A program made the translations under genes and the position numbers. DNA of 64,000 nt, from contig JAGWBR010000001.1 in assembly GCA_021295785.1 (NCBI GenBank), positions 1 through 64,000 on the forward strand, written 5' to 3'. Source of the stretch: Gemmatimonadota bacterium. Its GTDB lineage: Bacteria > Gemmatimonadota > Gemmatimonadetes > Palauibacterales > Palauibacteraceae. Under the pieces are notes generated by a model. That model was not told the DNA's origin. It searched no databases and saw nothing but the letters and a program-made list of their open reading frames with translations. Below, one piece after another: positions 3,049-20,073 of this stretch; position 1 is the first letter of the stretch, and every line of letters starts with the position of its first letter.

Positions 3049-3684
3049 TCAGATCAGGTAAACGATGGTGAACAGGATAATCCAAACGAGGTCAACGAAA
3101 TGCCAATACAGGCCCAGGATTTCGATCCCGCGGGAATTCCCGCCGCTCCAGTGACCGCGGTAGGCCCGGATCGTGGCCCACCCCAGGCAAATCACGCCCA
3201 GAAGAACGTGGAACCCGTGAAACCCGGTCATGGTGTAGAAAGTTGAGCCGTAGAGGATTGAGCATGTCTCCTCTACGCCGTTGCGCACCACCACGCAGTT
3301 GGACGGCGTGAAGTGGTGGTTGATCAATTCGTTGTATTCGTAGACCTGCACGCCCAGGAAACCGGCCCCGATCAGGGTGGTGGCGAGGAGCCATTTCTTG
3401 ATGCCCTGGTCGTCGTGTGCCTGGGCCGCCGCAAAGGCCTTGACCATGGTTACCGAACTGCAAATCAGCAGGAAGGTGTTGAACGCCGTGATGTTCACGG
3501 CCAGCACTTCGGCGGGCTCGGGCCAGGTGTTCTCCAGCGCCCCGAACCGCAGGACGATATACGAACCGATCAGGCCCGCGAAGAACATCACTTCGGAGCA
3601 CAGGAACACCCACATCCCAACCTTCTGGGTGTAGACATCCAGTCCCCTCTCGGGGGGCCTGTTCACCGCCGCGGCATGCGCCAT
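3049..3684 (-). CDS. ctaE: Cytochrome c oxidase subunit III
   Basis: Subunit III (CoxC/CtaE) supports proton uptake and protects the catalytic core of aa3 oxidases. The 211-residue protein has about five helices, as expected for the shorter bacterial form. Family hallmarks are GMWVFLCSEVMFFAGLIGSY near the N-terminus, FYTMTGFHGFHVLLG, and a C-terminal YWHFVDLVWIILFTIVYL. It lies 48 bases downstream of ctaD and upstream of the subunit IV gene. An insertion with two cysteines (SNCVVVRNGVEETCS) in the loop before the GFHGFHV helix is unusual; it may form a periplasmic disulphide. Confidence 0.95.
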   Translation of the reverse strand: MAHAAAVNRPPERGLDVYTQKVGMWVFLCSEVMFFAGLIGSYIVLRFGALENTWPEPAEVLAVNITAFNTFLLICSSVTMVKAFAAAQAHDDQGIKKWLLATTLIGAGFLGVQVYEYNELINHHFTPSNCVVVRNGVEETCSILYGSTFYTMTGFHGFHVLLGVICLGWATIRAYRGHWSGGNSRGIEILGLYWHFVDLVWIILFTIVYLI

Positions 3685-5527: not shown

Positions 5528-6205
5528 TCATTCGCCTCCGTTCTCGGCGACCTGGCTTGCTTGCCAGGCATCGAAATCAGCGCGAGCGTGGGCCGTCACG
5601 CTGGCCTCCATCCGGTAGTGGCCGAGCCCGCACAGCTCCGCGCAAGCTATCTCGAACTGCCCCGGTTCCCGCGAGTCAAACCAGATTCTGATGTTGTCCA
5701 TCCCGGGCACCGCGTCTTGTTTGACGCGTAGTTCCGGGATGAAGAACGAGTGAATCACGTCTTCCGACCGCAGGTTGACGATGACGTTTTCCCCGGCGGG
5801 AAAATGGAACTGGTTTCGCACCTCGAAGTCGTCGGAAGTGCCCAGCACCTCGTCGACCCCGGGATAGACCACGTTCCACTCGAACTGCTTGCCGATCACG
5901 GTGAATTCCAGTGCGTCTTCGGGAAACTTGTTCTCGTTCTTGATGTCGTCCCAGACCATCGCCGAGTAACCGCCAAGCACGACGATGATCACCGCGGGAA
6001 TCACGGTCCAGACTACTTCGAGTCGGTTGGAGCCGTGTGTGTAGTGCGCCCGGCGGGAAGGCGTCCCGCGGTAGCGAACGAGGAACCAGATGATTCCGCC
6101 CTCGACCAGGACGAATGCCAGGCCGGTAAGGCCCAGGATGATCCAAAACAGCTGATCGATCACGTCGCCGTGCGTCGAAAAATTGGGGGGAAGCGACCAA
6201 TCCAC
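5528..6205 (-). CDS. ctaC: Cytochrome c oxidase subunit II (CuA)
   Basis: CtaC accepts electrons from cytochrome c at a periplasmic binuclear CuA centre. The GTG at 6205 is chosen because AAAGGAG lies eight bases upstream and because the longer frame adds 29 residues unlike any subunit II. The 225-residue product has two transmembrane helices (about 17-43 and 64-86). A cupredoxin domain follows, with CuA ligands His152, Cys188, Glu190, Cys192, His196 and Met199 in the CAELCGLGHYRM motif. The aromatic QFEW electron-entry motif is present. There is no fused cytochrome c domain, so a separate cytochrome c donor is required; several are encoded just upstream. Confidence 0.95.
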   Translation of the reverse strand: MDWSLPPNFSTHGDVIDQLFWIILGLTGLAFVLVEGGIIWFLVRYRGTPSRRAHYTHGSNRLEVVWTVIPAVIIVVLGGYSAMVWDDIKNENKFPEDALEFTVIGKQFEWNVVYPGVDEVLGTSDDFEVRNQFHFPAGENVIVNLRSEDVIHSFFIPELRVKQDAVPGMDNIRIWFDSREPGQFEIACAELCGLGHYRMEASVTAHARADFDAWQASQVAENGGE

Positions 6206-6245
6206 GGGCTCTACTCCTTTGGGGCGAGTCCTGATTGAACCGGAG

Positions 6246-6295
6246 TCATGATGTGGTTGGGGGGCGGCGGCCGTGATGCCGCCGCCCCCCATGAC
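6246..6295 (-). other. Strong GC-rich inverted repeat between cupredoxin gene and ctaC
   Basis: Positions 6259-6270 (GGGGGGCGGCGG) pair perfectly with 6279-6290 (CCGCCGCCCCCC) around an eight-base loop. An outer GTCAT/ATGAC pair at 6245-6249 and 6291-6295 extends the symmetry. On the minus-strand transcript the hairpin falls right after the cupredoxin-like gene and before ctaC. No U-tract follows, so it is not a classical intrinsic terminator. It could stabilise the upstream mRNA 3' end, attenuate transcription, or separate the accessory cytochrome module from the oxidase genes. Confidence 0.6.
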
Positions 6296-6301
6296 TGTTC
6301 G

Positions 6302-7171
6302 TTACTGCTGAGCTCTGTTGAAGACCACTTCGTCGGAGCCGTGGTGGATCACCAGCGGTTCGCCGACCAGGTGTCCCGCCATCTGGAGCCCCGTATGGTC
6401 GAAATCGGCCATTGTGGTCTCGCCGGCAGTGACCGTGACTTCCATTCCCATGGTTCCGTACTGCTCGTGCCACGCGGTCATGGTGTACGTGCCGGCGGGG
6501 ACATTGGAGATGGTGAACATCCCGCCGTCGCCCGAGACGCCGAAGTACGGGTGATCAACTACTCCGACGAACGCCTCCATCCAACCGTGAACATCGCAGC
6601 GCAGGGGCACCATTACCTCCGCCACGGCAAACGACTGCCGACTGGTGATCCCCGCGCGGGGCTGGCTGATGTTGAATCCGCGGTTTTCGGTTGGAGTTGC
6701 ATTGATGTTGTGGAGCAGATTGTCGCTGTTTGTAATCTCGATGGTCTGCCCTGCCTGGACGCCCATGACGTGCGGCGCGTAGCGGCAGTTGGTCTGGTCC
6801 AGGGTTGCCGCGCCGTACGGGGCGGGAGCATCCATGACCCCGGCGCTCAGGTACACGAACACGTTGGCGAGTCCGCCGCCGTTTACGACGACCGACTGCA
6901 TCATCGGGCCTTCGTCTCCAAATCCGGCCGCACAGTCTGGCTCGGCCGACATGTCAATCGCCTCCATTGCAGGTGCGTCGCCCGAGAAGTTGATCGTGCC
7001 CGAAATCGTGCCGACCGTGGAGGGATCAATGGCGGCTACTTCGGCGGCGGCCTCACCCCCGCTCTCACCATTGCCTGCGTCTGCGTCGCCCCCGTCGCTT
7101 CCACCGCAAGCGGCGTAAAGCACACCCGTTAGAAGCGCCGCCGCGACCCTGCTCCGATAATCAAAACGCAT
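6302..7171 (-). CDS. Cupredoxin-like lipoprotein with possible blue-copper site
   Basis: The 289-residue protein begins at ATG 7171, preceded by a GGAGAGGA sequence. A signal peptide ends in a lipobox-like YAAC, so the protein is probably lipid-anchored and extracytoplasmic. An Asp/Gly/Glu-rich linker follows. The core resembles the plastocyanin-like/carboxypeptidase-regulatory domain family: possible type I copper ligands are His in NLLHNINA and Cys, His and Met in CDVHGWM. The spacing Cys-x2-His-x2-Met is shorter than in classical plastocyanin. A beta-sandwich (VPAGTYTMTAWHE) completes it. It sits between the c-type cytochrome genes and ctaC, so it may shuttle electrons between them; that role is inferred. 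Confidence 0.7.
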   Translation of the reverse strand: MRFDYRSRVAAALLTGVLYAACGGSDGGDADAGNGESGGEAAAEVAAIDPSTVGTISGTINFSGDAPAMEAIDMSAEPDCAAGFGDEGPMMQSVVVNGGGLANVFVYLSAGVMDAPAPYGAATLDQTNCRYAPHVMGVQAGQTIEITNSDNLLHNINATPTENRGFNISQPRAGITSRQSFAVAEVMVPLRCDVHGWMEAFVGVVDHPYFGVSGDGGMFTISNVPAGTYTMTAWHEQYGTMGMEVTVTAGETTMADFDHTGLQMAGHLVGEPLVIHHGSDEVVFNRAQQ

Positions 7172-7194
7172 GTATCCTCTCCGTCGTCTGTTGT

Positions 7195-8835
7195 TCAATC
7201 GCCGCTCTGGGCCCGGCGCACAAGCACCAGTCCGAAAGCACCGGTCAGCAGCATTGCGATCATTGGCGCCACCACCACCCGGTTCGATGCCGGCGGCTCC
7301 AGCAGAATATAATACCAAGTGCTAATTGAGCTGCGGCGCTCCGTCTCCCCGCTAGACCCGTCCCAGGCCTGGAACGCAACCGGGATGGTGGCCCCTTCCG
7401 CGAAGGTAATTCCGTCAGCTTCTGGGTCCGGGACCAGGGCGCGCCGCACGTACAAAGTCCAGCGGCCTTCGCTCCAGGTTGCCTGCCCCGCAACCGCGTC
7501 TTCGGGCAGTTCTTCGGCCGACGCCAGCCCGCGCCCGCGAGCCGCTCCCACGCCCTGCTCCGAATCCCAGGTCCAGAGGTAGACCGGGTTGCGGGCGTCT
7601 CCCATCAAGAAATACGGGCGCTGCGAACTGGTCGGGATCTCGAACGGGAACTGCACGTAGAACCGGTCTGGATAGCGGGGTACTTCCCCCTCGGCGTCGC
7701 CCCTCGGCTCGTCTTCCGTGATCTCTGCGTCCACCGCGGCCAGCGACGCGTCCAGGTCAAAGGCCCCGTCCATATCCAGGGTCTCGCTCACCTTCAGCTG
7801 CCATTCGTCCCACGAGGGGTCCGGACTCCGCGACGGATCGTTCCACTGGATCCTGAGCGCGACGTCGTTTCCGTCGTGGAGGCCCTGCACCCAAACACCG
7901 TCCACGGTGGGGGCGAAATTCCTCGGAGGCTCAATTACCTGACCGCCGAGCGGGAAATAGAAGGCCTCTGCCTGACCCCAGCTATCTGCGTCCCCGTCCC
8001 CGGGCAGCCCCGCTTCGGCGCGGCCCACGCGAACCACTTCGTTGAGCGGCGGGGCCTGCGAGGGGCCCAGCGACGCCACATAGTGCGCCAGGGCCCACAC
8101 TTCCTCCGGGGTCACCACCCCGGCGTTCATGGCGTCGCTGGCCGCCGGCATCGGAGTCCCGTCCAGGCCGGTCAGGACCCGGGTATGGATGTCGTCAACC
8201 GAGGAGCCTCCGTTGAACAACCAGACCTCGCTCAGGTCAGCTGCCCGTATCGGGAACCCGCGCCAGTCTTCCAGGGTGGGAGCTGACGCGCCGTCTCCCC
8301 TGCCCGAAGGCCCGTGGCAGGCCTCGCATTCCAGCGCCAGGTATGCGGCAGCCCCGGATTCGATGGCCGCCGGACCTCCGCCGGGGTCTGTGCCCAATTC
8401 CATTGGCTGTGGCGGGTCGCCCATGCCGAAGAACCTCGAGAAGCTCTTGAGGTAGGCTATGACGTCTTCGGTTTCCCGTGCTGACAGGTTGGGCCAGCCG
8501 GGCATGGTGGTGCCCGGAAGGCCATCGCGAATGGCTGCCCGGATATCGTCATCGGTGGGGAGCTGGCCGCTGCCAGTTCGCCGGATCTGGTACCGCGCCT
8601 GGGTGAAGTCGCGCGGGCGCGGCAGCATCGAGGCGGCCGCGGGACCGTCGCCAGCTCCGTTAACGCCGTGGCACTCCGCGCACCACAGGTCGTACACGAC
8701 CTTGCCCGCCTCCGCGTCCTGGGCCAGACCCTGCGCGGCAGCGGCGAGTTGAACAACCATACCGGCGAAAAGGGCAGATGCGAGGAAGACCGGGCCCGAC
8801 AGTCCGGTGCTGCCCCCGAGGCGATCGGATTTCAT
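7195..8835 (-). CDS. Dihaem cytochrome c with ethylbenzene-dehydrogenase-type haem domain
   Basis: The 546-residue protein starts at ATG 8835, which overlaps the upstream stop by one base (TGATG). It has a signal peptide or anchor, then two class I cytochrome c domains, each with one CxxCH motif (CAECHG and CEACHG). The second half resembles the haem b-binding gamma-subunit domain of ethylbenzene/DMSO dehydrogenases (WVQGLHDGNDVALRIQWND; WTLYVRRALVPD). A C-terminal membrane helix (MIAMLLTGAFGLVLVRR) anchors it. It would be a periplasmic multihaem electron carrier serving the CydA-like protein encoded upstream. Combining two c haems with such a domain in one polypeptide is uncommon. Confidence 0.85.
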   Translation of the reverse strand: MKSDRLGGSTGLSGPVFLASALFAGMVVQLAAAAQGLAQDAEAGKVVYDLWCAECHGVNGAGDGPAAASMLPRPRDFTQARYQIRRTGSGQLPTDDDIRAAIRDGLPGTTMPGWPNLSARETEDVIAYLKSFSRFFGMGDPPQPMELGTDPGGGPAAIESGAAAYLALECEACHGPSGRGDGASAPTLEDWRGFPIRAADLSEVWLFNGGSSVDDIHTRVLTGLDGTPMPAASDAMNAGVVTPEEVWALAHYVASLGPSQAPPLNEVVRVGRAEAGLPGDGDADSWGQAEAFYFPLGGQVIEPPRNFAPTVDGVWVQGLHDGNDVALRIQWNDPSRSPDPSWDEWQLKVSETLDMDGAFDLDASLAAVDAEITEDEPRGDAEGEVPRYPDRFYVQFPFEIPTSSQRPYFLMGDARNPVYLWTWDSEQGVGAARGRGLASAEELPEDAVAGQATWSEGRWTLYVRRALVPDPEADGITFAEGATIPVAFQAWDGSSGETERRSSISTWYYILLEPPASNRVVVAPMIAMLLTGAFGLVLVRRAQSGD

Positions 8836-9626
8836 CAGTGCGCCTCCCCTTCCGCTTCGTGCCAGGTGCGGGGGCTGAATCCGGTCTGCTCGTACAGGTA
8901 GATGATTGTGGCCCAGATCTCGTGCTGCTCCAGGATGTTCTCCCACGCCGGCATCGCCGAATCCCAGGGAGTCCCCTCCGTGGGCAGGCCCGGCCCGCCT
9001 TTGACGATTCGCCAGAAGACGAAACTCTCGGTGAGCTGCGGCAGCACGCCACCGCTGGTGAAATCGGCGGGCACCGGGTTGAAGGCCGGCGCGAAATGCC
9101 CCTCTCCGTCCATGCGGTCGCCGTGGCAGGGAACGCAGTTCACGGTGTAGATGCTCCGCCCCAGGGCGATGTGCTCTTCCATGGATCCCGAGCTTCGCAG
9201 CGGATTCTCCAGCCCCGTCAGGGTGATCGGCTCGCCCCGGAAGGTGATTTCACCCGGGGGTGCCGGGTGAATGCTGCGAAGGGTGGCCGGAGCGCCAAAG
9301 CTGAGGCGGACGTTCTGGTAGGTCATCCAGCCCGCCATTACCGGAATGGCGACCATCAAGAGCCCCCTGGGAACCCGGCGGTCCGGGAGAGTCAGGGTAT
9401 CGCGGACGGGTTGCATGAACGACTTCCACCGGGCCTCGTCGGCGCTGAAATAGACCAGCACCCCAACAATGACGATCGCCATGTACTGCAGGATCACCGT
9501 CTGCGGGACGGGTGCGCTGGATACACCGACGAGCGGCAGACCGTACCCGATCACGTATTCGAACAGGACATACGCGGCCACAAGTACCACCGCGGCCTGA
9601 ACGATTGGCTGCCTGCGCAGGTTCAC
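8835..9626 (-). CDS. Membrane-anchored monohaem cytochrome c
   Basis: The 263-residue protein has three hydrophobic segments (about residues 9-30, 43-60 and 88-104). One periplasmic cytochrome c domain follows, with haem motif Cys164-Val-Pro-Cys167-His168. The likely distal methionine lies in SAMPAWE, as in class I cytochromes (cbb3-CcoP-like). The start is an ATG overlapping the previous stop, and the stop overlaps the next start. It would tether electron transfer close to the CydA-like subunit and is encoded between two other c-type cytochromes. I know of no precise family name; the cytochrome c assignment itself is secure. Confidence 0.87.
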   Translation of the reverse strand: MNLRRQPIVQAAVVLVAAYVLFEYVIGYGLPLVGVSSAPVPQTVILQYMAIVIVGVLVYFSADEARWKSFMQPVRDTLTLPDRRVPRGLLMVAIPVMAGWMTYQNVRLSFGAPATLRSIHPAPPGEITFRGEPITLTGLENPLRSSGSMEEHIALGRSIYTVNCVPCHGDRMDGEGHFAPAFNPVPADFTSGGVLPQLTESFVFWRIVKGGPGLPTEGTPWDSAMPAWENILEQHEIWATIIYLYEQTGFSPRTWHEAEGEAH

Positions 9627-10459
9627 GGGCGGTCCTCCCCCGGAGGTGCGTCGTCCCCGACCGAGCCATCAGTCGAGCCGCCGGGCGCTCCCCCCTCCAT
9701 CAAGAACTGGATCAGGGCTTCCAGCTCGGCCGGCGCCAACTGGTCACCGTAGTAGGTCGGCATTACTCCCGCAAAGGGCTCGTAGCCCGCGGCGGTGTCC
9801 GCGTTCGGCTCCAGGATACCGCGTTCAATTTCTTCGTACGAGCGTCCGGTCAGCTCTTCAAGCGGCGGGCCGACCATGGCACCCTGCCCCCCGTAGGCGT
9901 GGCAGGCCAGACAGTGCACCCTCAGGATGCCCATTACGTCCACCGCCGATGGGTCCGTGGGAGGTGGTTCGGCCGCGGCGGCAAGGGCAGCCTCGTCGGC
10001 CGCGGCAGCAGCCGCGAAGTCGTCGGGGCCCACCGTTACTTCCCCGCCCTGCGCCTCAAGGAAGGCGACCAGCGTCCAGAGTTCGGCCTGCGACATGAGG
10101 CGGCTCTGGTCGAGCATGATCGGCTGGAAACCCTCGACGATGTAAGACACCGGAGACACCAGCGACTCCCAGAGGTATTCCTTGCAGGACTGCCCGGGGT
10201 TGCGGGTGGCGCACACCGTCCCGGCCACGCCCAGGATGTCGGGCGCGCGCGTACCCAGGCCGTGGCATGCAGTGCAGCCGCCCACGCCGAAGTACAGGGT
10301 CTCTCCGATTCCGACCAGCTCGTCGGGAGTCATGTCGGCCCGGATCTCGATTTCCTCGGGCACCGCCGACTGCACCTGCGGAATCACGTTGGCGATGAAC
10401 GTGAACACGGCCAGCGTCATCGCGACCGTGAACAGAATCTTGAGGTTCGTGCGAAGCAT
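9623..10459 (-). CDS. Membrane-anchored dihaem cytochrome c
   Basis: The 278-residue protein has an N-terminal membrane anchor (residues 6-28) and two cytochrome c domains. Their haem sites are Cys62-Thr-Ala-Cys65-His66 and Cys183-Leu-Ala-Cys186-His187. The domains are joined by an Ala-rich linker, and the C-terminus is Gly/Asp/Pro-rich. An extra cysteine pair (Cys83, Cys92) in the first domain may form a disulphide. It is encoded six bases after the CydA-like gene and overlaps the next cytochrome by four bases, so it is probably the first redox partner of that membrane protein. Confidence 0.88.
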   Translation of the reverse strand: MLRTNLKILFTVAMTLAVFTFIANVIPQVQSAVPEEIEIRADMTPDELVGIGETLYFGVGGCTACHGLGTRAPDILGVAGTVCATRNPGQSCKEYLWESLVSPVSYIVEGFQPIMLDQSRLMSQAELWTLVAFLEAQGGEVTVGPDDFAAAAAADEAALAAAAEPPPTDPSAVDVMGILRVHCLACHAYGGQGAMVGPPLEELTGRSYEEIERGILEPNADTAAGYEPFAGVMPTYYGDQLAPAELEALIQFLMEGGAPGGSTDGSVGDDAPPGEDRP

Positions 10460-10465
10460 GGCCCC

Positions 10466-12238
10466 TCAGCCCGTGCCCGCGGCTGTCGCGCCGGAGGGTT
10501 GGTCGGCGGATTTTTCGCTCAGTCCGCCCAGCCAGAAAATCATGCCCACAAGCCCAAAAAACAGCGCCACGCAAATCGAGATCATCGTGGCTGCCGGTCC
10601 AAGGGCAGGCGTGAATGCCTGTTCGCTGGTGTCCCGAATCACCTCGTACACGTGCCAGTGCTGGCGAATCCCGCTGCGAGCGAACCCCATCAGGCCCATC
10701 AGCCATGTGAAGGTGACCGCCAACACAAGCAGCGCGTACTGCGAACGCGGTGGCATGTGCCCCCAGCGGATGGTTCCCCGGGATCTGGCCCCCCGCAGCA
10801 TCAGCACGTCCAGCGCGGTCACGAACAGGATCGTGACCAGGACCGCGAGCACCTGGTACACCGAGAAGCCGATCCGCACGATGGCTTCCACGAAGTAGCC
10901 CCAGATTCCGTATGCCAACACCACCAGGGCACACACGGCGAACGCCAGGCCCTGCAACATGGTCGCCGCCCTGGCCCACGCCACGACCGGTTCGCGGTTT
11001 GCGCGCCGGTACATCAGGAACGACAGGAACGTCGTCAGGATCATCAGGTTGACGGCCGTGTTCTTGGCGCTCATCACGCCGAGCACGCCCAGGAACGGGT
11101 GATGGGTGCCCCCCATCGCCGCGATCTCGTCACGACTGGCGATCATTGTGTTGGGGGTGGCCCACACGATCACACCCAGCACCAACACCAGCAGCATCCA
11201 CTTGATGTAAGGCTGGAACCTCTCGGCTCCCGGAATACGGCCCATCCCGACCCACAGGTAGTAGTTGCCCGCCAGGAACAGGATACCGATCAGAAACGCC
11301 TGGATGATCCACAACCAGCTCATGAATCCGCCCATCATGGTGATTCCCATGGTTTGGCTGAACTCGTAGATCTCGCGGCCGAGCCAGTAGCCGGCGAAGG
11401 GCAGCACGATCAGCGCGCCGATCGCGATGAAGTTGCCGGTGTAGCCCATCCAGTCGTAGTGGGCCCGCTCATCGTCGGTCTTCGAGGTCAGGAAACGGTA
11501 CGCCGCGTAGGCACCGACGATGGCGCCGCCGAACACCACGTTGGCCAAAAGGCGGTGGATATTGATGGGCATCCAGGTGGCGTTGTTGATCGCACTCCAC
11601 AGCTCGATCTGGGGCGGCGCGGTCTCGGCGGTCACGCCCTCCGGCGGGCTCATCATGTAGGTGAGCCACCCGTTGGCGATGAACATTACCGCGGTGCCCC
11701 ACACGTTGAGCATGATCCCCAGGCCCCAGTGGAACTTCTTGGCGATTCCTTTCTTCCAGGCGTCCCACCCGTAGTAGTACAGGTACAGGGTGAAGGACTC
11801 GAAGAAGAACAGCCCCGCGTAGAGCCACATCGACGGGGCGAAGATCCCGGTCAGGTACGACCAGAAGTTGGGGTAGAGAGTGGAAAGGAAGAAAACCAGG
11901 ATCGCGCCCCAGATTGCGGTCGCGCTGTAGGCCACCAGCAGCAGGCGCGTGAACTCCTTGGCCAGTTTGTCGTAGCGCTGGTCGCCCCCGAACATCCCGA
12001 TCGCCTCGATGACGACCGCGAACATGGGAACCCCCAGCACGAAGGCCGCGAAGAGGAGGTGGAGCTGAGCGGCAATCCATATCGCGCCGCGGCGGTCGAG
12101 GCCGAACAGGGCGAACTCGCCGTATTCGGGGCCTGTGAACTGTTGCGCCAGGGCCGGTGCGGCCGCGAGAAAAGCTACCGCCGCGGCGCCCCATGCAATC
12201 CAGCCGTGTCTGGAGATTGCGCTGAGTTTCGAGTTCAA
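10466..12238 (-). CDS. CydA-like cytochrome bd-superfamily membrane protein, no CydB partner
   Basis: The 590-residue protein resembles cytochrome bd subunit I. His60 in the AQLHLLFAAFVLG helix matches the N-terminal haem ligand, Glu147 in FFFESF matches the conserved acidic channel residue, and His228 in NIHRLLANVVFGG matches the haem b558 ligand. Met297/Met301 fall where the other b558 ligand is expected. The GRQPW quinol-oxidase motif and its glutamate are not found, and extra C-terminal helices are present. No CydB gene is near; c-type cytochromes follow instead. It may take electrons from, or give them to, cytochrome c rather than quinol. Related bd-like proteins are known from Nitrospira-type bacteria. 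The N-terminus is signal-like. Confidence 0.82.
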   Translation of the reverse strand: MNSKLSAISRHGWIAWGAAAVAFLAAAPALAQQFTGPEYGEFALFGLDRRGAIWIAAQLHLLFAAFVLGVPMFAVVIEAIGMFGGDQRYDKLAKEFTRLLLVAYSATAIWGAILVFFLSTLYPNFWSYLTGIFAPSMWLYAGLFFFESFTLYLYYYGWDAWKKGIAKKFHWGLGIMLNVWGTAVMFIANGWLTYMMSPPEGVTAETAPPQIELWSAINNATWMPINIHRLLANVVFGGAIVGAYAAYRFLTSKTDDERAHYDWMGYTGNFIAIGALIVLPFAGYWLGREIYEFSQTMGITMMGGFMSWLWIIQAFLIGILFLAGNYYLWVGMGRIPGAERFQPYIKWMLLVLVLGVIVWATPNTMIASRDEIAAMGGTHHPFLGVLGVMSAKNTAVNLMILTTFLSFLMYRRANREPVVAWARAATMLQGLAFAVCALVVLAYGIWGYFVEAIVRIGFSVYQVLAVLVTILFVTALDVLMLRGARSRGTIRWGHMPPRSQYALLVLAVTFTWLMGLMGFARSGIRQHWHVYEVIRDTSEQAFTPALGPAATMISICVALFFGLVGMIFWLGGLSEKSADQPSGATAAGTG

Positions 12239-13593
12239 GGACGCCGCCGTCCGCGGGCGAAAAATGGAATTTTTTTGGAGAAATCCACGGGCATTGCCCG
12301 CCGCACATCGGACATGGATTCCAATGTGACTTCGGTGCCTCCTTTTTCGCGGACAAATTTCTCTACGCGCCCGGCAACCACTCCGCGCACGAAACTAGGG
12401 ATTGCCGCAAGCCGACGCTCAGCTTCGGGCGACCAGGTCATGGCGCGTTCGGCGGGTGATCCGTAGGCGACCGAGGAAGGCATGATTTCCTCGGCCTGAA
12501 AGGGTCCCGGTTCATACGCGCAGGACTCGTCAGGCCCCAGGAAATCGCCGTCCACTGCGTAGGCCCGCGCCCGGCAACCCCCGCAAATGCCCCGGAATTC
12601 GCACCGCCCGCATTTGCCGCCAAGTTCGCCGGTCCGCAGCAACCTGAACAGCGTGGAATTGTTCCAGATCTCGCCGAATGACTGCTCGCTCAGGTCACCC
12701 GCCACTTCTGGCATGTAAGGGCACGGCGTGACTTTCCCCTCGGGCGTAATCCGGCAGTACTGAACCCCGCAGGGGCACCGGGTCTTGTAGTTGAGCAGGG
12801 GCGACTCGGGGTCTTCTTCGTAGACGTGCCGCATCAGCTGGGGCTGGCACTTTGAGCGGATCATCATCCTGCCCCGGTACTCACGCTGCATCCGGGTGAT
12901 TTCGCGCAGTACCTCGTCGTTTTCGGCGGGAGTCATTCCTTTCATGCCCTCGCCGCGCCCGGTCTCGACCAGGAAATAGATGTTCAGGCACACAGCGCCC
13001 TTCCTGCAAGCCCACGCGGCGATGTTCGCGATCTCCGCACGGTTTCCCCGGGTGACCGTGGTCTGGACCAGGAAGTCCAGCTCCAAAGCGGCAAGCCGGT
13101 CGATAGCGGCGACGGTGGCCTCGAGAGACCCCTCTCCGTGACGGAACCGGTCGTGGTAACGCGGGTTGAGCGAGTCGATGCTGACGGCCACGCCCTGCAC
13201 GCCGGCGCGCATCAGCGAATCGATGCGATTTTCGTTGAGTCCGGTACCGTTGGTGCCAACGACCACCGTTGCCCCGCCCCGGGTGGCGTGCCCCGCAATT
13301 GCTTCAAGGTCATCCCGCACCAGCGGTTCCCCGCCGCTGAGAATCAGCAGCGGCGAAGGGCTGGCCTCGAGAATCTGGTCAACGATCCGGAGGCAGGCCG
13401 GGGTATCGAGTTCGCCGGCCGCTGCCTCCCAGGAGCCGGCCGAGATGTAACAGTGGGCGCATGCGAGGTTGCAGCGGCGGGTCAGGTTCCAGGCAACGAC
13501 ATGCGCAACGTCAACATCTGCCTGGCCCGGGAGCAGGGGTTCTGGCCAAACGGCACTGGTCGCCACGCCGCCCGCCGACCCCGGGGCCGTCAC
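12235..13593 (-). CDS. Radical SAM/SPASM protein with C-terminal PCP_red domain
   Basis: This 452-residue enzyme has the radical SAM cluster motif Cys41-x3-Cys45-x2-Cys48 (CNLACAHC) and the GGEP motif. A SPASM-like auxiliary Fe-S region contains about eight cysteines (CPCGVQYC; CPYM; CGRCEFRGICGGC). Its layout is closest to the AhbD/NirJ/PqqE group, several of which modify haem side chains. The last 60 residues (WSPEAERRLAAIPSFVRG...) form a PCP_red-like domain shared with two neighbouring proteins. Four-base overlaps join it to the CydA-like gene and the stress-protein gene. A role in haem modification or maturation of the CydA-like protein is inference. Confidence 0.85.
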   Translation of the reverse strand: MTAPGSAGGVATSAVWPEPLLPGQADVDVAHVVAWNLTRRCNLACAHCYISAGSWEAAAGELDTPACLRIVDQILEASPSPLLILSGGEPLVRDDLEAIAGHATRGGATVVVGTNGTGLNENRIDSLMRAGVQGVAVSIDSLNPRYHDRFRHGEGSLEATVAAIDRLAALELDFLVQTTVTRGNRAEIANIAAWACRKGAVCLNIYFLVETGRGEGMKGMTPAENDEVLREITRMQREYRGRMMIRSKCQPQLMRHVYEEDPESPLLNYKTRCPCGVQYCRITPEGKVTPCPYMPEVAGDLSEQSFGEIWNNSTLFRLLRTGELGGKCGRCEFRGICGGCRARAYAVDGDFLGPDESCAYEPGPFQAEEIMPSSVAYGSPAERAMTWSPEAERRLAAIPSFVRGVVAGRVEKFVREKGGTEVTLESMSDVRRAMPVDFSKKIPFFARGRRRP

Positions 13594-15713
13594 TCGCCCG
13601 AAGACTCCGCGAACTGCTTGATTGCTTCTTCCGCCTGATCGGGCGTCACCATCTTGAAATCCACCGGGCAGTCGGCAGCGGCCTGATCAATGTCTCTGAT
13701 GGGACACCGCGTCACCCCCGACGCCTTCGCCTCTTCAATGAACTTCTTCATCTCGTCGCTAATCGCGTCGTTGCCCGCTGCCTCGGCGCGGACCTGTTTG
13801 GCCTTGAGTTCGTTGAACATCACGAGCATGGTGTCCAGGTCGAACTCGTCGGCCGCGATCATCGCATCGCGGTTCTCGTCCATCACCCTGGTTGTTACCC
13901 GCCACAGGTCCAACTGCCGCGCAAACTTCTCGACGGTGTTCCTTGCAAGCGGACGGGCGATCAGAGGGACGCGGCCCAGGCGGTCGAACGCCTCGGTGGT
14001 CCACACCATCGCGTCGCTGGCGATGCGGTCGCGGACCAGTTCGTTGTCGGTAACGGGACAGCGGGTCACGACGGGGGGAGGTTCGTTGAACACGTCGTCG
14101 TCGCTGGTTTCAATGACCGTCCGCTGCATCGCCTCATTTGCCTTGACCTCGGCCAGCGCCAGCTCTTCGGCGTCGCCGATCCCCATGACCAACTGCATGT
14201 GCGTGGGCAGGAGTTTCTTGATGGCCTCGTCCAACCGGTCGCTGGTCACGGTGGGCAGCTCGGCGCGGTTCCACGGCAAATGCCGGTCGTCGGTTGCCGC
14301 TTCATCGCCCTCCGCGGGCAGCGGGGCCGCGACGGCAGCGTTACCGTTGTTGAAGCGCTTCTCGTCTTTCGGGTTGGGGACGAAAGCCGCGGCGTACCGG
14401 GACCCGGGGCCGTAGTGCTCCAACACGTACTCCTCCACTGCCTTGCGGGCGATTCCCAGCGCGAACGGCGGCACCCGCAGGATCCGCACTTCGGCGTCGG
14501 GGGCCCATTCGAGCCCGGTCTCGCCGTCTTCGTCGATCCATGGAATCTCTTCCGGCTTGACGTTTCCGGTCCCGATCAGGAGAACGTTGCCGGGTGCGAG
14601 CCGGACCAGGTTGTCGGCCTGCGAACCCAGGTCGGTGCCTTCGATTCGGTGGGATCCGTGGCGGGCAATCACCATCAACGAAGGTTCGACCTCTTCGGCC
14701 CACTGGAGCATCGCCTGAAATGGTTTGCCGACCAGTACCTGAGTTTCGACCTCCACCTCGGGGTAACCAGCCGCCATCACCATGGCGCGTTTGATGTTGG
14801 CCTTGCAGAGCCTCAGCAGGCCCTTGTCGATGATGTTGTTGTGGAGCTCTTCCTGTTCTTCAAACTTGAACACCTTCGAGGCCTGCACCGAGAGGACGTC
14901 TTTGATGTTGTGGAAGACCACATGGTGGTACTGGACGTCGAACGCGCTGCCGATGTAGAGCTTGGCCTCGTACTCCCTGGCCATCTCCAGGGCCAGACGG
15001 AGTCCCTTGTAGGCATATGCGGATCCGTCGACCCCGACCATCCAGTTCCCGCCCTCCAGCGGCCGGTCGTCCCTCACGACCAAAAGATCTTTCGATATTC
15101 CGCGGAGGGACCGCCCCACCACCCCCCCCAACTGGCTCTGGGGCTGTCGGCCGAGTCCGTGCGCGCCCAACACGATCAGATCGTAGTCCCGCTCGGTAGC
15201 TCCGGCGAGTTTCTCTTCTTCTTCCTCGTCCTCGGCCTGGAGCCGGCCGTCTTGGGAGACCGCCACGTCGGCGCGCTGCCTGTCGCTGCCGTCGTAGTTG
15301 CTGGCGATGTTCGGGTCGAACCCGATCAGGCTGGGCAGGCGCCCCGCCCCGCTGTTGGCCTCGTTCTGGATCTCTTCGTAGTTGATCCCTTCAAGGAGCT
15401 GCCGGGTGAAATTGACTCCGGCGTCGTTGCAGCGGCGGTGCAGGTGATCCAGAAAGCTGTCCGAGATGAGCTGGAGCCCTTTCTCGATCAGCTTGTCGTG
15501 GATCTTGCGCTGACGGCGGATCTCGGCGGGTTCCTGGAACTGGGCGGGAAGACCTATTTCCAGTTGCCGGAAACGCACGTCGTGGAGGCGGGCAGCGTAC
15601 ACATGGGACCCGGTAACTCGGCCCCCGGATTTTGAGCAAATCTCGATGGCGCGGTCAACGGCCCAGTCAGACTCCTGGGAATTGTCAACGGGCGCGAGCA
15701 CTTCCCTGTACAT
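13590..15713 (-). CDS. Tandem universal stress protein with two PCP_red-like domains
   Basis: The 707-residue protein begins MYREVLAPVDNS at ATG 15713; GGGAGG lies close upstream. Residues 1-215 form one UspA domain interrupted by an acidic insertion (EDEEEEE). Residues 224-382 form a second, with the nucleotide-binding pattern VGVDGSAYAYK and GSQADNLVRLAPGNVLLIG. PCP_red-like segments follow at about 401-435 (WAPDAEVRILRVPPFALG) and 570-615 (WTTEAFDRLGRVPLIARP). Two copies of a VTRCP motif lie near the C-terminus. The protein is cytoplasmic, so it cannot be a direct partner of the periplasmic cytochromes; a regulatory or cofactor-delivery role is possible. I know of no characterised protein with this architecture. 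Confidence 0.85.
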   Translation of the reverse strand: MYREVLAPVDNSQESDWAVDRAIEICSKSGGRVTGSHVYAARLHDVRFRQLEIGLPAQFQEPAEIRRQRKIHDKLIEKGLQLISDSFLDHLHRRCNDAGVNFTRQLLEGINYEEIQNEANSGAGRLPSLIGFDPNIASNYDGSDRQRADVAVSQDGRLQAEDEEEEEKLAGATERDYDLIVLGAHGLGRQPQSQLGGVVGRSLRGISKDLLVVRDDRPLEGGNWMVGVDGSAYAYKGLRLALEMAREYEAKLYIGSAFDVQYHHVVFHNIKDVLSVQASKVFKFEEQEELHNNIIDKGLLRLCKANIKRAMVMAAGYPEVEVETQVLVGKPFQAMLQWAEEVEPSLMVIARHGSHRIEGTDLGSQADNLVRLAPGNVLLIGTGNVKPEEIPWIDEDGETGLEWAPDAEVRILRVPPFALGIARKAVEEYVLEHYGPGSRYAAAFVPNPKDEKRFNNGNAAVAAPLPAEGDEAATDDRHLPWNRAELPTVTSDRLDEAIKKLLPTHMQLVMGIGDAEELALAEVKANEAMQRTVIETSDDDVFNEPPPVVTRCPVTDNELVRDRIASDAMVWTTEAFDRLGRVPLIARPLARNTVEKFARQLDLWRVTTRVMDENRDAMIAADEFDLDTMLVMFNELKAKQVRAEAAGNDAISDEMKKFIEEAKASGVTRCPIRDIDQAAADCPVDFKMVTPDQAEEAIKQFAESSGE

Positions 15714-15867
15714 GGTCCTCCCGACGGCTGGGATCTGTGGGATTGAGGGTGCGCCCGCCAACGCCATCAGCAGGCGCGCGAAGTTTGCTTCAGCCGCGGG
15801 GGCATGTCAAACGGCCAGACTGTCTCAATGGCCTGTCAGGCCGCGGTCCAATGTCCGCCGCCCGCGG

Positions 15868-16575
15868 TCAGCTGTTCGCCGGCCAGCGAAGGCGGCGACT
15901 CCAGCGGTTTGCGGTCAACACAGCCAGCGCGACCACCGATGCCAGGGTCAGGGCCGGCCGCAGCCAATCGCCCAGGTCCGGCGCAGGCCCCCCGGCACCG
16001 TGGGTCAGTGCCTCTTTGAGAGGTCGGTAGGGGCTCCAGTCGGCCGCAAGCGTGTCCCAGCCCTGCCTGGGCGGGCGGAAGAAACCGGCCAGGTGAATCA
16101 GACCCAGCGACACCGCGGCCGAGGCCAGTGCCGCCTCGGCCAGTGACCGGACAGTGGCGGCGATGGCCGCTCCCAGGATGCCGGCCATGAGAAGTGCAGC
16201 CATCAGGGCCGCCAAGACGTGCATCGATGCGTTGATGCTGCCGGTGGCCGCCAGCAGCATCAAGGCCGCCGGGGCGAGTTGCCACGTATCGATCAGAACC
16301 GATGCAGCGGCCGATTCAAGTAACCAGCGGCGGGGACCGAGACCGGCGGCAAACATCTCTTCAAGCCATCCGCCGCGGGCATCACGCACAGTGGGGATGG
16401 CGGACCCGAACGCCCCGAAGAAAACCAGAAACACTCCGTATACCACCACCCGGTGGGGGGCGGCGGCGGGGCTCAGGGCCACCGGAGTCAGCAGCAAGAG
16501 GGGCACGGCCACGTTCCAGGCAAACAGCCGGCGTCGCCGCAGCGCGGTCAGCCACGCGAGGTGCCACGCGGTCAT
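15868..16575 (-). CDS. ABC-2/CcmB-like transporter permease
   Basis: The 235-residue protein has about six hydrophobic helices and the Arg-rich start common in ABC-2 permeases (MTAWHLAWLTALRRRRLFAWN). A cytoplasmic coupling segment (RDARGGWLEEMFAAG) is visible. The ATG at 16575 is chosen because it overlaps the stop of the ATPase gene by four bases; the longer frame upstream is unsupported. Size and topology fit CcmB-like or NatB-like exporters. The substrate is unknown. Position beside cytochrome genes makes a haem or redox-cofactor exporter attractive but unproven. The 154 bases downstream of the gene carry a small palindrome (GGCCTGTCAGGCC) and no recognisable gene. Confidence 0.75.
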   Translation of the reverse strand: MTAWHLAWLTALRRRRLFAWNVAVPLLLLTPVALSPAAAPHRVVVYGVFLVFFGAFGSAIPTVRDARGGWLEEMFAAGLGPRRWLLESAAASVLIDTWQLAPAALMLLAATGSINASMHVLAALMAALLMAGILGAAIAATVRSLAEAALASAAVSLGLIHLAGFFRPPRQGWDTLAADWSPYRPLKEALTHGAGGPAPDLGDWLRPALTLASVVALAVLTANRWSRRLRWPANS

Positions 16576-17522
16576 CGGTGGTCCGCCGTCCGGCGCCGGG
16601 CCAAGGGGTGCCCGGCCAGCGCCCGGAAGACGTCTGCCAGCGTGGGTGAACGGACTTCCACCGAACGAACCGATGCACCCGCGGCGAACAGTGTTTGGAG
16701 CACCGCGGGCAGGGCCTCCGGAGGTTCTCGGACGACCAACGTCATCACCGGGTAGCCTGCCTCGGTGTCCGGGCCGTCCGGGCCAACGGTGATTCCCGGA
16801 GGGAAGTTCTGGGCGATGCCGGTGGGCGGGGGGGGACCGTCGAACCAGATCTCGATCCGGTAACCGTCTTCTACCGTCGCCATAAGAGCATCCGGGGTGT
16901 CCGCGGCGATACACACACCACCGAACAGGAACGCGGTCCTGTCGCATTGATCGGCCGCGTACTCGGGATCGTGAGTGGAAAAAACAGTGGTGGCGCCCCC
17001 GTCGCGGCGATCTCTCAGGGCGGTTGCCAGCGCGTCCCGGGCACCCGGGTCCAGTCCCGAAAGCGGTTCATCCAGCAGTAGCAGATCTGGTTCGGCCGCG
17101 AAACCGGCCGCCAGGGCGGTCCGGCGGCGCATCCCCCGGGAATACACTCCGAAAGGGCGGTCCACGAAATCGTGCGCGGGGCCCAGTGCGGCCAGCCACT
17201 CGGCAGCACGTTCTCTGGCCCGGAGCGGCGCGACGCCGTGGAGGCGGAGCAGCGTCTCAACGTTCTCCCTCCCGCTCAGCCAGGGGCGGAGCGCCGGCTC
17301 GTCGGGTACCAGCCATGTCCGCAGTCCGGTCTTGGCGCGGCGCGGGAGCAAGCGCAGCAGGGTGGTCTTCCCGCAGCCGTTCGGCCCTAGAAGGCCCAGG
17401 TTCTCGCCCCGACGCACGCCAAGGTCCATACCGCTCAGGGCCGCGGTCCCGTCGGGGTAGGACCACCGCAGGTCCCTTACCTCCAGCAGCGGGGCTTCAG
17501 CCACCTGCGTCAGGGGGGACAA
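16572..17522 (-). CDS. ABC transporter ATP-binding protein
   Basis: The 316-residue protein has Walker A (GPNGCGKTT), Walker B (LLLLDEP) with D-loop (SGLDPG), and an H-loop (STHDPE). The signature motif is degenerate: YSRGM in place of LSGGQ, as in several CcmA- and NatA-like proteins. A C-terminal domain of about 90 residues after position 215 may be regulatory. The start is uncertain: TTG 17522 has a weak GAGG three bases upstream, while GTG 17504 overlaps the ferredoxin stop less. It pairs with the permease encoded directly downstream. Confidence 0.85.
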   Translation of the reverse strand: MSPLTQVAEAPLLEVRDLRWSYPDGTAALSGMDLGVRRGENLGLLGPNGCGKTTLLRLLPRRAKTGLRTWLVPDEPALRPWLSGRENVETLLRLHGVAPLRARERAAEWLAALGPAHDFVDRPFGVYSRGMRRRTALAAGFAAEPDLLLLDEPLSGLDPGARDALATALRDRRDGGATTVFSTHDPEYAADQCDRTAFLFGGVCIAADTPDALMATVEDGYRIEIWFDGPPPPTGIAQNFPPGITVGPDGPDTEAGYPVMTLVVREPPEALPAVLQTLFAAGASVRSVEVRSPTLADVFRALAGHPLARRRTADHR

Positions 17523-17769
17523 TTACCTCGCCATCTTCCCACACGGTGATGGCGTCAACGGGGCAGGATTCGCACGCCTTGAGGAAGATCTCCCGCGAGG
17601 ACCGCTCGGGGCCCGTGAAGACTGCCACTCCTTCCTCGTCAAGGTCGAAGGCTAGCGGCGCCTCCTCGATGCAGTCTCCGAAGCCGACACAGAGGTCGCG
17701 GTCAATTTCGGCGCGGAGGCCGTGAACCTCGCGCTCAATCAGCGGTTCGCCGCCTTCGGCAGGGCTCAC
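17497..17769 (-). CDS. Small ferredoxin
   Basis: The 90-residue protein matches the single-cluster ferredoxins of the Fer4_15/P450-associated type: Cys27-x5-Cys33 (CVGFGDC), then Cys69-Pro (SCPVDAI). An additional Cys66 gives a four-cysteine set (ACESCP), so the cluster could be [4Fe-4S] rather than [3Fe-4S]. GTG at 17769 is the start and overlaps the preceding stop as ATGTGA. It is the likely cytoplasmic electron donor for the radical SAM enzyme or another enzyme of this cluster; that pairing is inferred from operon position. Confidence 0.85.
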   Translation of the reverse strand: MSPAEGGEPLIEREVHGLRAEIDRDLCVGFGDCIEEAPLAFDLDEEGVAVFTGPERSSREIFLKACESCPVDAITVWEDGEVIVPPDAGG

Positions 17770-18215
17770 ATACCCTCCAAACCGAGGTCTGACCTGGCCT
17801 GGTCCATGACCGCGGGGGTCATCCGTGCGATCCCCCGTTCCCTGGCGTAGTCGTTGTAGATCTTCTTGACCATTCCCCGCACGAACGACGGCACCAGACC
17901 GAGGCGCTCCACCGCCTCGGGCGACCAGCGCACGGGGCCTGCCGGTGGCGTAGCAGGCTCCCGGTCCTCGAATGCGTCGTCGCGGCCGGCGGTCACACCT
18001 CCGCGGATCCCCTCAAACTCTGCCTGGGGGACCGTCCGCCCTCCTACCTTCACCCCGAGAGAGCTCACCAGCTGTGTCTCCATCGGATTGGCCAGCATGG
18101 CCGTCATTCGTTCGCATTTCGGGCACCGGAACACGGCGGCCAGCGTTCCATCACCCGGCGTCTGCCGTTCCTCGAAGGTCATCTGCCGGTCGCAGGGTAC
18201 GCACAGGAATTTCAT
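17766..18215 (-). CDS. Zinc-ribbon protein with PCP_red domain
   Basis: The 149-residue protein has a rubredoxin/zinc-ribbon-like N-terminus with Cys5-x2-Cys8 and Cys31-x2-Cys34. A flexible middle follows, then a C-terminal PCP_red-like domain (about residues 95-149; WSPEAVERLGLVPSFVRGMVKKIY) nearly identical in pattern to that of the radical SAM protein. The four cysteines could bind zinc or a simple iron centre. The gene overlaps the Mrp-type ATPase upstream and the ferredoxin downstream, each by four bases. Its function is unknown; the shared domain implies that it acts with the radical SAM and tandem stress proteins. Confidence 0.8.
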   Translation of the reverse strand: MKFLCVPCDRQMTFEERQTPGDGTLAAVFRCPKCERMTAMLANPMETQLVSSLGVKVGGRTVPQAEFEGIRGGVTAGRDDAFEDREPATPPAGPVRWSPEAVERLGLVPSFVRGMVKKIYNDYARERGIARMTPAVMDQARSDLGLEGM

Positions 18216-19183
18216 CCTCCCGACCCTCCCCGGGGATGTTCCAATCGGAGACGCTGCAGTTCCTCCTCCGTGCGCAGGGCCAGCTGGCGCACCAGATCTC
18301 GCACGCTGCCGGCAGCGCCTTTCCTATCCGTCCAGTCCTCGACTCGGCCACCGTCGGCCGCGGCCGCCAGACCAGAGTCAAGCGGCAGGGCCCCCAGGAC
18401 CGGCACTCCAAACCGTGCGGCAAGGGCATCGGCCTCTCCTCCCTCGTGCACACGGGTTATCTCTCCGCACTCCGAACACACAACGCCGCTCATGTTCTCG
18501 ATCAGCCCCGCCACCGGCGCGCTCCGCGCCCGGGCCAGGTCGAGAGAGCGGGCCACCGCGTCCCGGGCGGAGCGGCCGGGGGCCGTGACGACCACAACGC
18601 CGGTCAGGTCCGGCACCATCGCGTGCAGGTCAGCGAGGCGCGGTCCCCCGGGCGGCAGGTCAATCACCATGATGTCCAACCTTCCCCAGGCGGTATCGGC
18701 CAGAAATTCGCGGAGTGCCCGGCGTTCCTGAGCGCCCCGCCATATGTAGCCCGAATCGCGGGGCTCTCTCCAGGAAAGGGCGGCGTCTTGGTCCAGAATA
18801 AGCGACATGGACATGATCCGGACGTCACCGCTGGACCGCGCCGGTTCGATCCCTTCCGGCCCGACGGCCAGCCCGTCCCCATCAACCCCGAGCAGGTGCG
18901 CGGTGCTGGGACCGTTGAGGTCGGCATCCAGGAGCCCCGTTTTCATGCCCCGTCGGGCGAACGAGGCCGCCAGCAGAGCCGAAACCATGCTCTTTCCCAC
19001 TCCCCCCTTCCCGCTCATTACGGCCAGGGTCATCTGAACGGTGTGGAGGCGGACAGCGACGCGTCGGGCGGCCTCGGCGACCTGGTCCGGCAAATTGGAC
19101 TCGGCCTCGGCGACCTGATTGTAGGTCCTGATTTTGAGATTCAACGGGTCATCCCGGGTTTCCCTTGAGTGCTGCCCTCGCAA
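18212..19183 (-). CDS. Mrp/NBP35-type Fe-S carrier P-loop ATPase
   Basis: The protein has the deviant Walker A GKGGVGKS (residues 58-65), a LLDADLNGPSTAHLLG switch region and IDLPPG. A CxxC pair (VVCSECGE) usually bridges an Fe-S cluster between two subunits of Mrp/ApbC. These proteins carry [4Fe-4S] clusters to apo-targets. Here the ferredoxin, radical SAM and zinc-ribbon proteins of the same operon are obvious clients. The start is uncertain: TTG 19183 is the longest frame, TTG 19144 is possible. It is the first gene of the minus-strand block, divergent from the plus-strand pair; the 60-base gap must hold both promoters. Confidence 0.85.
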   Translation of the reverse strand: MRGQHSRETRDDPLNLKIRTYNQVAEAESNLPDQVAEAARRVAVRLHTVQMTLAVMSGKGGVGKSMVSALLAASFARRGMKTGLLDADLNGPSTAHLLGVDGDGLAVGPEGIEPARSSGDVRIMSMSLILDQDAALSWREPRDSGYIWRGAQERRALREFLADTAWGRLDIMVIDLPPGGPRLADLHAMVPDLTGVVVVTAPGRSARDAVARSLDLARARSAPVAGLIENMSGVVCSECGEITRVHEGGEADALAARFGVPVLGALPLDSGLAAAADGGRVEDWTDRKGAAGSVRDLVRQLALRTEEELQRLRLEHPRGGSGG

Positions 19184-19243
19184 CGGGCCGCGTTACGGGC
19201 GGAAGAATAGCGCCGGAGGGCCGTTCGGTGTAGTGTTTGCGCC

Positions 19244-19450
19244 ATGTCTGTCATCAGTTTTCACAGGTTTCTCATCTCGGTCGCGATACTCTTCTGCCTG
19301 GTGTTCGCGGCATGGGCACTGGTCACGGCGGGGGGGCGTGCCGGCCTCTCGGCGCTCGGTATCGGTTTTCTGACGGGGGGCGCTCTTCTGGCCTACTATC
19401 TGGCCAATTTGGAGAGATTTCTGGGCAAGGAGCACTCGCGCCGGGAGTGA
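19244..19450 (+). CDS. Small two-helix membrane protein
   Basis: The 68-residue protein has two hydrophobic helices (about 8-28 and 33-53) and a charged C-terminus (NLERFLGKEHSRRE). No family is recognised. It starts with ATG 19244, and its stop overlaps the GTG start of the next gene (GTGA), so the two are translationally coupled. With its partner it is one of only three plus-strand genes in the window. No good Shine-Dalgarno sequence is visible. Confidence 0.65.
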   Translation: MSVISFHRFLISVAILFCLVFAAWALVTAGGRAGLSALGIGFLTGGALLAYYLANLERFLGKEHSRRE

Positions 19451-20073
19451 GAAACCCGCCCGTCGTGGAGCGGATCCCGGTATGGCTGTACCCCGTCGGC
19501 GGGATGTTCATGGTCGCCATGGTGTTGCTGGTGGCGGCGTCCGTGTCCCGTCCCGAGGTGCCCGAGTTCGAGCCCACCGAGCTGGTGCCCCGTGGCGTGC
19601 CGTCAGGATGGGCAACCGACACGGTGACGATCGATGCGCGAAACGGGGCCGAGTGGGCCCTTTTCGATCTGGAGACCCGGTCGATGGTTGAGGCTCCGGC
19701 CGGTGACTGGGACCTGGCCGTAAAGCGATTCCACATGGTCACCAATGGCGGGCCCGGCCTTTCCGGTGCCGGTGGCGCGGCGTTGTTGGACGGGGGGTGG
19801 GATGCAGTGACCGAGGCCCCGGCCAGCGGTTACGCGGTAACAGCGGGTGCGCTGGGGGACGGCGCGACTCACCCGGTGCTGGATCACTGGTACGTGTATG
19901 GTTTCTTTTCGCACATTCTGACACCCGCGCCGTTGGTGTACGCCTTGCGCACCGCCGAAGGTCGGTACGCCAAGTTCAGGATTCTGGGTTACTACTGTCC
20001 CGGTGCCAATCCAGGCTGCATGACGATCGAATACGCTGTTCAGGGAGACGGGACTCGTCAACTGGCCCCCTGA
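19447..20073 (+). CDS. HmuY-like membrane-anchored protein
   Basis: The 208-residue protein starts at GTG 19447. It has one N-terminal membrane anchor (about residues 11-35) followed by an extracytoplasmic domain. The pattern WALFDLETRSMVEA, WDLAVKRFHMVTNGG and YAKFRILGYY resembles the HmuY family, whose founder is a haem-binding lipoprotein of Porphyromonas. The anchor is a transmembrane helix rather than a lipobox. Haem ligands cannot be assigned by eye. The 3' end overlaps the convergent hemC gene by 16 bases. Its location between hemC and the cytochrome cluster fits a haem-handling role, which is inference. Confidence 0.72.
   Translation: MRNPPVVERIPVWLYPVGGMFMVAMVLLVAASVSRPEVPEFEPTELVPRGVPSGWATDTVTIDARNGAEWALFDLETRSMVEAPAGDWDLAVKRFHMVTNGGPGLSGAGGAALLDGGWDAVTEAPASGYAVTAGALGDGATHPVLDHWYVYGFFSHILTPAPLVYALRTAEGRYAKFRILGYYCPGANPGCMTIEYAVQGDGTRQLAP

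Follow-up and report, generated by a model that had tools for sequence, protein, structure and literature searches.

A cytochrome bd-like gene cluster of Gemmatimonadota and its coupling to a PCP_red module with a probable role in maturation

Introduction

Gene clusters coding for a cytochrome bd-like protein together with alt-NxrC are known from Nitrospira, Nitrospina, Kuenenia and anammox bacteria, where their function is unproven, and the homologues have been proposed to form either a complex III-like unit or a unit anchoring NXR (PMC3578206, PMC6606698). Relatives of cytochrome bd of the OR-N type have been proposed to act as cytochrome c-using O2 reductases (PMC10839748), and in cytochrome bd itself the roles of haem ligands are assigned to His19, His186, Met393 and Glu445 (PMC8585947). 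For more than ten years the complex has been described as enigmatic in key organisms of the nitrogen cycle, and in the open-licence literature no paper was found that shows its function or its haems.

The window analysed here, a stretch of 64,000 nucleotides from a marine Gemmatimonadota genome, carries the genes of such a complex in one operon run with those of the main respiratory oxidase. An earlier note, made from the sequence alone, had taken this run for a candidate undescribed redox system. That does not apply to the structural core, which has been under discussion for over ten years in nitrite oxidisers and anammox bacteria (PMC3578206, PMC6606698). The adjoining PCP_red module and its coupling to this core, by contrast, are apparently undescribed, as neither a description of the module nor a relevant paper on PCP_red could be found in the open-licence literature.

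Organisation of the operon

The assembly searched comprises 2.18 Mb in 36 contigs and is 85% complete, and the nearest relatives are Gemmatimonadota, including Candidatus Palauibacter. Twelve genes, and not thirteen as originally counted, stand ahead of coxB on the minus strand and are followed by those for CoxB, CoxA, CoxC, a CoxD-like protein and CtaB (Table 1). The collinear layout running on into the aa3 oxidase genes is otherwise as first noted, and the overlaps by four bases are present at five junctions (Mrp/Zn, Zn/Fd, USP/rSAM, rSAM/CydA and diC/monoC), while the monoC/EBc junction overlaps by 1-4 bases, depending on the choice of start codon. Likewise, three of the cytosolic proteins, namely the zinc-ribbon, USP and radical SAM proteins, do carry a PCP_red domain. 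The CcmAB-like ABC pair, which had been counted among the cofactor genes, is present here but is accessory, being part of only some of the Gemmatimonadota loci.

Table 1. Features of the operon run, with positions in the window
Gene	Product	Position	Strand	Basis or remark
Mrp	Mrp/NBP35-type P-loop ATPase, iron-sulfur carrier type; first module gene	18212-19183	-	PF10609; Walker A GKGGVGKS conserved
ZnPCP	Zinc ribbon (C5 C8 C31 C34) with C-terminal PCP_red	17766-18215	-	NCBIfam BchB models, PF08369 scan, AF2 model
Fd	Small 4Fe-4S ferredoxin	17497-17769	-	
ABC	ABC ATPase, CcmA-like, accessory	16572-17522	-	in about 18 loci
ABC	ABC2-type membrane protein, CcmB-like, accessory	15868-16575	-	
USP	Tandem USP (universal stress protein) domains with PCP_red, one strong and one weak copy	13590-15767	-	Pfam
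rSAM	Radical SAM/SPASM protein, NirJ/AhbD neighbourhood, with C-terminal PCP_red	12235-13593	-	Pfam, NCBIfam, conserved cysteines
CydA	CydA-like membrane protein, 590 aa, without CydB partner	10466-12238	-	
diC	Membrane-anchored diheme cytochrome c	9623-10459	-	
monoC	Membrane-anchored monoheme cytochrome c	8835-9626	-	M225 conserved, likely axial
EBc	Diheme cytochrome c with EB_dh domain and C-terminal TM helix, alt-NxrC-like	7195 to about 8838	-	
Cup	Cupredoxin-like protein with C-terminal CarboxypepD_reg/fn3-like domain	6302 to about 7174	-	type-1 copper ligand set
CoxB	aa3 oxidase CoxB, run goes on	5528-6292	-	
CoxA	aa3 oxidase CoxA	3733-5526	-	
CoxC	aa3 oxidase CoxC	3049-3684	-	
CtaB	CtaB-like protoheme farnesyltransferase, end of oxidase run	1731-2687	-	assigned from reading the sequence

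Between the Mrp gene and hemC (20058-21038, identified by reading the sequence) lies, on the opposite strand, a gene for an HmuY-like haem-binding protein (19237-20073, plus strand; PF14064), and the module is therefore flanked by haem-related genes. Elsewhere in the window, positions 54180-56189 (minus strand) code for a PfkB-type kinase that is, unusually, fused to an AIR synthase-type domain, and ARAGORN assigns a tRNA-Sec to positions 31641-31736 (minus strand), with a tmRNA nearby at 32757-33121.

Conservation of gene order

A comparison across 80 loci of public genomes revealed that the order Mrp-ZnPCP-Fd-(ABC)-USP-rSAM-CydA-diC-monoC-EBc-Cup-CoxBAC is kept in most Gemmatimonadota contigs that are long enough, with Fd and Mrp, and likewise monoC and EBc, varying slightly in their position. 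With the same order in dozens of genomes this grouping is far above chance. A Rokubacterium (L051) shares the Gemmatimonadota order without the ABC pair, NC10 and SAR324 keep the module genes close to CydA in other arrangements, and in Thermoanaerobaculia EBc is followed by USP-PCP. In anammox-type genomes the module is split over several loci, with USP-PCP residing within the CydA-like cluster, and for those Rokubacteria loci without an adjacent module a whole-genome search located it at other loci of the genome. In general, module genes absent from the operon are found elsewhere in the same genome and are mostly grouped there, and their occurrence at such separate sites fits assembly factors. 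The search for conserved co-occurrence that the earlier note had proposed thus found CydA-like and PCP_red genes linked or co-occurring in at least seven phyla, which contradicts the possibility, also looked for, that no genome outside this strain pairs them.

Co-occurrence of PCP_red with the CydA-like gene

The CydA-like gene is present in 33 of 60 class-level Gemmatimonadota relatives, weak canonical CydA matches being left out of this count. PCP_red was found in 32 of these 33 genomes in contrast to 2 of the 27 without the gene (Fisher's test, 1.7e-13), and in 277 Acidobacteriota genomes in 27 of 28 with the gene in contrast to 4 of 249 without it (4e-32), where both values are indicative and overstate independence since genomes within a phylum share ancestry. 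The stronger point is that the pairing is repeated across phyla. As to the exceptions, the sole miss in the Gemmatimonadota (G053) has a mere fragment of CydA at a contig end, and the two genomes with PCP_red but without the CydA-like gene (G032, G036) both carry module genes, the contig of G032 stopping inside the rSAM gene, where cydA would come next. Of the four exceptional Acidobacteriota genomes three look, from reading the sequences, like those of phototrophs, their PCP_red genes being of the chlorophyll type with BchB- and BchZ-like products, and the fourth has a single frame of 112 aa.

PCP_red was also detected in all 25 genomes that had been chosen for their CydA-like gene (Rokubacteria, NC10, Chloroflexi, Myxococcota, Scalindua, Thermoanaerobaculia and SAR324) as compared to 1 of 14 controls, the usual set there being Mrp, Zn-PCP, USP-PCP and rSAM-PCP. 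Among 294 Planctomycetota genomes it occurs in 26, of which 19 have a PCP_red gene inside a CydA/cytochrome cluster, two have NIR_SIR-PCP only, two yield sub-threshold matches only, and three (G380, G441, G613) show module genes but no CydA-like gene in the locus stretches examined. In this sampling, which was made up without Nitrospirota genomes, the coupling of the module to the CydA-like gene is almost one-to-one, and that the module is found almost only where the complex is present suggests that the complex needs its own cofactor-making or assembly machinery.

The CydA-like protein

According to a profile alignment, a phmmer search of the PDB and an alignment of 33 sequences, residues H60, H228 and E147 correspond to His19, His186 and Glu107 of Escherichia coli, and all three are conserved. 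The AF2 model (pLDDT 78, pTM 0.79) gave ten top Foldseek matches that are all CydA (probability 1.0, TMt 0.42-0.57), and its significant PDB matches are CydA chains of cytochrome bd only. For Met393 and Glu445 no equivalents were found. Neither a Met nor a His is conserved in the helix that follows residue 452, where Met393 would be expected, and in place of GRQPW the sequence is IRQHW, which lacks the Glu. The mapping in this C-terminal part is weak (hhalign probability 53-73%) and was partly made by eye because only the GRQPW region of the C-terminal half aligned with canonical CydA. Judging from conservation, H170, H380, H529, M389 and M514, which are invariant beyond the canonical set, could be alternative haem ligands. 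There is no canonical Q-loop: the profile alignment with canonical CydA stops short of it, and predicted helices stand where it would be.

A CydA-like protein without CydB had been claimed from the start, and indeed no PF02322 match was obtained in its own genome or in 11 genomes of the same genus (G001-G011), the control being positive in 10 of 14. A second CydA-type partner (CydA′) was not found either in the 85% complete genome, which has one PF01654 match, as have most genomes of the genus. In two loci from Myxococcota and SAR324 (L069, L080) the CydA-diC-monoC-EBc cluster occurs twice per locus, and the second CydA, which is about 48% identical to the protein in the window and has an inserted region, is a possible CydA′ partner.

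Cytochromes c and cupredoxin

The EB-DH cytochrome retains both CxxCH sites, for which the axial ligands are likely M111 and M229, and its cytochrome half (residues 41-257) is homologous to chain B of PDB 6h5l (E 8.5e-48). This chain, listed in the PDB as a conserved hypothetical cytochrome protein and presumably from Kuenenia, has 226 residues and no EB_dh domain, whereas the protein described here has both parts. Binding of haem b in the EB_dh part is doubtful because no Met, Lys or His is near-invariant there among the homologues. The cupredoxin assignment was made from the set H155-C193-H196-M199, which is conserved in 58 homologues, and not via a Pfam cupredoxin hit.

The PCP_red module

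Pfam detects PCP_red in the radical SAM protein (1e-13) and the USP protein (4e-14), and for the zinc-ribbon protein the domain is supported by NCBIfam BchB models, the whole-genome PF08369 scan and an AF2 model that agrees with the NMR structure of PCP_red (2kru) at an rmsd of 1.1. PCP_red is the C-terminal domain of subunit B of DPOR (2kru, 2xdq), and outside the module it was found on DPOR subunit B, on a BchZ-like protein and on a NIR_SIR protein beside siroheme decarboxylases. A DPOR-like reductase was ruled out, the run being without the catalytic subunits. In the radical SAM protein the CX3CX2C and SPASM cysteines are all conserved in 53 homologues. Its highest NCBIfam scores are for NirJ2 (275 bits) and AhbD (267 bits), about half of the equivalog cut-offs of 500 bits, compared with 110-125 bits for PqqE and the mycofactocin maturase. 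Its best solved relative is PqqE, and PADLOC returned generic radical SAM (viperin) similarity only for the run.

The presence of PCP_red on tetrapyrrole enzymes, taken together with the class of the radical SAM protein, makes tetrapyrrole chemistry the leading reading, and as far as can be judged from the sequences the module probably acts on a tetrapyrrole. PCP_red could also be a plain protein-docking domain, and its up to five copies on the USP protein fit docking too. In Scalindua and anammox-type planctomycetes (L177, L236, L240, L241, L261, L262, L263) PCP_red is fused to a NIR_SIR/ferredoxin protein encoded next to siroheme decarboxylase genes, which suggests that the fusion is an undescribed part of a siroheme-to-haem route. 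In anammox-type genomes (L212-L225) the radical SAM protein has three PCP_red copies and is encoded away from the CydA-like cluster.

Proposed function and alternative explanations

The gene content, linkage, co-occurrence and ligand conservation established here are probably best explained by two linked units, a cytochrome c-linked bd-like complex and a dedicated cytosolic maturation module. A complex of this kind with its own module had been proposed in the earlier note and is still the best reading, and the genes do belong together; the haem modification included in that proposal is something that we infer, as are the maturation role, the tetrapyrrole chemistry and the route of the electrons. 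The first unit would consist of the CydA-like core, the membrane-anchored mono- and diheme cytochromes c, the EB-DH diheme cytochrome and the cupredoxin. Most likely it would exchange electrons via a haem-c/copper relay with the periplasmic pool used by aa3, because the Gemmatimonadota cluster immediately precedes the genes of the aa3 cytochrome c oxidase, and we favour the view that it works together with aa3 as a redox unit coupled to cytochrome c and copper. In the module, iron-sulfur clusters would be supplied or serviced by the Mrp ATPase and the ferredoxin, with the NirJ/AhbD-like radical SAM protein as the likely catalyst. Through their PCP_red domains the radical SAM, USP and zinc-ribbon proteins may bind to one another or to a tetrapyrrole substrate that they share. 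The CydA-like subunit would need the resulting product, which is probably a tetrapyrrole in modified form or a haem inserted in a special way. Only tentatively do we suggest that the module makes or inserts a new modified tetrapyrrole, such as a chlorin- or isobacteriochlorin-like haem, and that this cofactor defines the active centre of bd-like complexes in nitrite oxidisers and anammox bacteria as well as in many uncultured phyla.

The complex might alternatively be an OR-N-type enzyme that reduces O2 with electrons from cytochrome c and thus a second terminal oxidase beside aa3, a possible but rather doubtful reading. The lack of CydB in this genome and 11 of the same genus, the conserved H60, H228 and E147 and the cytochromes c encoded alongside would agree with it, as would the proposed use of cytochrome c by OR-N enzymes (PMC10839748, PMC12324825). 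However, the equivalents of Met393 and Glu445 were not found, the single PF01654 match leaves no CydA′ partner, and anammox bacteria, which are anaerobic, have the gene set too (PMC3578206), the cluster having been observed in Scalindua. That the complex acts like an alternative complex III, linking the quinone pool and cytochrome c by electron transfer in the forward or reverse direction, as was proposed for the Nitrospina and Kuenenia homologues (PMC3578206), seems unlikely. A bc-type cytochrome b is indeed rarer among the 60 relatives where the CydA-like gene is present (9/33 versus 18/27; one-sided Fisher 0.002), but this depletion is mostly due to one genus without bc-type cytochrome b, and the canonical Q-loop is absent from the CydA-like protein. 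Moreover, an ACIII set with MoCo/Fe-S, NrfD, ActD and cytochrome subunits is encoded elsewhere in the genome (contig C17), and ActD in 55 of the 60 relatives; therefore no quinol:cytochrome c reductase is missing in the lineage, and an assignment as bc1 substitute by elimination was rejected. Within the run itself none of the Act subunits (ActB MoCo/Fe-S, NrfD-type ActC, ActD) was found.

The module, for its part, could serve iron-sulfur/stress functions or cytochrome c maturation in general and travel along with the cluster, with no action on the CydA-like protein. The general roles of the Mrp, ferredoxin and USP families would be in line with this, and so would the CcmAB-like genes, which suggest export of haem for c-type cytochromes, but the whole-genome coupling holds also where the genes are not adjacent and PCP_red is missing from most genomes of the sampled phyla, which makes such hitchhiking improbable. 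It is far less probable still that the radical SAM protein is simply AhbD, making haem b, or NirJ, making haem d1. These two families do give its top NCBIfam scores, but ferrochelatase was found in all of 20 genomes, including this one, and among 30 genomes a convincing cytochrome cd1 was detected in G004 only and none in this genome, while the module is present in nearly all of the genus. With ferrochelatase present and cd1 missing, synthesis of ordinary haem b or of haem d1 is not a likely task of the protein, and both assignments, which also suffer from scores at about half of the cut-offs, are disfavoured. The dedicated maturation module remains the reading preferred here.

Implications and comparison with known systems

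As a near one-to-one marker, the module indicates that the CydA-like protein probably needs special maturation. If ordinary heterologous expression should fail, the module gives a concrete explanation and shows which genes to supply in addition, and it also opens a way to test the bd-like complex for an unusual haem. In addition, the complex is not tied to the neighbourhood of NXR, as many Gemmatimonadota have it in one run with the aa3 oxidase.

Among the known systems, canonical CydAB shares with the present protein the CydA fold and the equivalents of His19 and His186, but here no CydB, Q-loop or equivalents of Met393 and Glu445 were found. The OR-N enzymes (PMC10839748) are similar in having a CydA-type protein without CydB and without a quinol-binding loop, and cytochrome c as the likely partner, and differ by their CydAA′ pairing, as no CydA′ was found in this genome. 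With DPOR subunit B (BchB/ChlB) the run shares solely the small C-terminal PCP_red domain, and it contains neither the nitrogenase-like BchN/BchB domains nor BchL. NirJ and AhbD (PMC7242693, PMC12505453) are the closest radical SAM/SPASM models, from which the protein described here deviates by its extra PCP_red domain, by scores below the cut-offs and by a host that already has ferrochelatase.

In contrast to the bd-like_3/alt-NxrC_2 cluster known from Nitrospira, Nitrospina and Kuenenia, where NXR genes follow, the aa3 oxidase genes follow here and no NXR gene was found in the operon, and the cluster is preceded by the PCP_red module, which the main text of the respective papers does not mention (PMC3578206, PMC6606698). 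In all other respects compared, the cluster is like bd-like_3/alt-NxrC_2, with a bd-like protein in which membrane helices replace the Q-loop, mono- and diheme cytochromes c, an EB-DH-type subunit with two haems c and a TM helix, and cupredoxin-like proteins, and the same gene set of bd-like protein, mono- and diheme cytochromes c, EB-DH diheme cytochrome c with TM helix and cupredoxin is found in Scalindua (L176).
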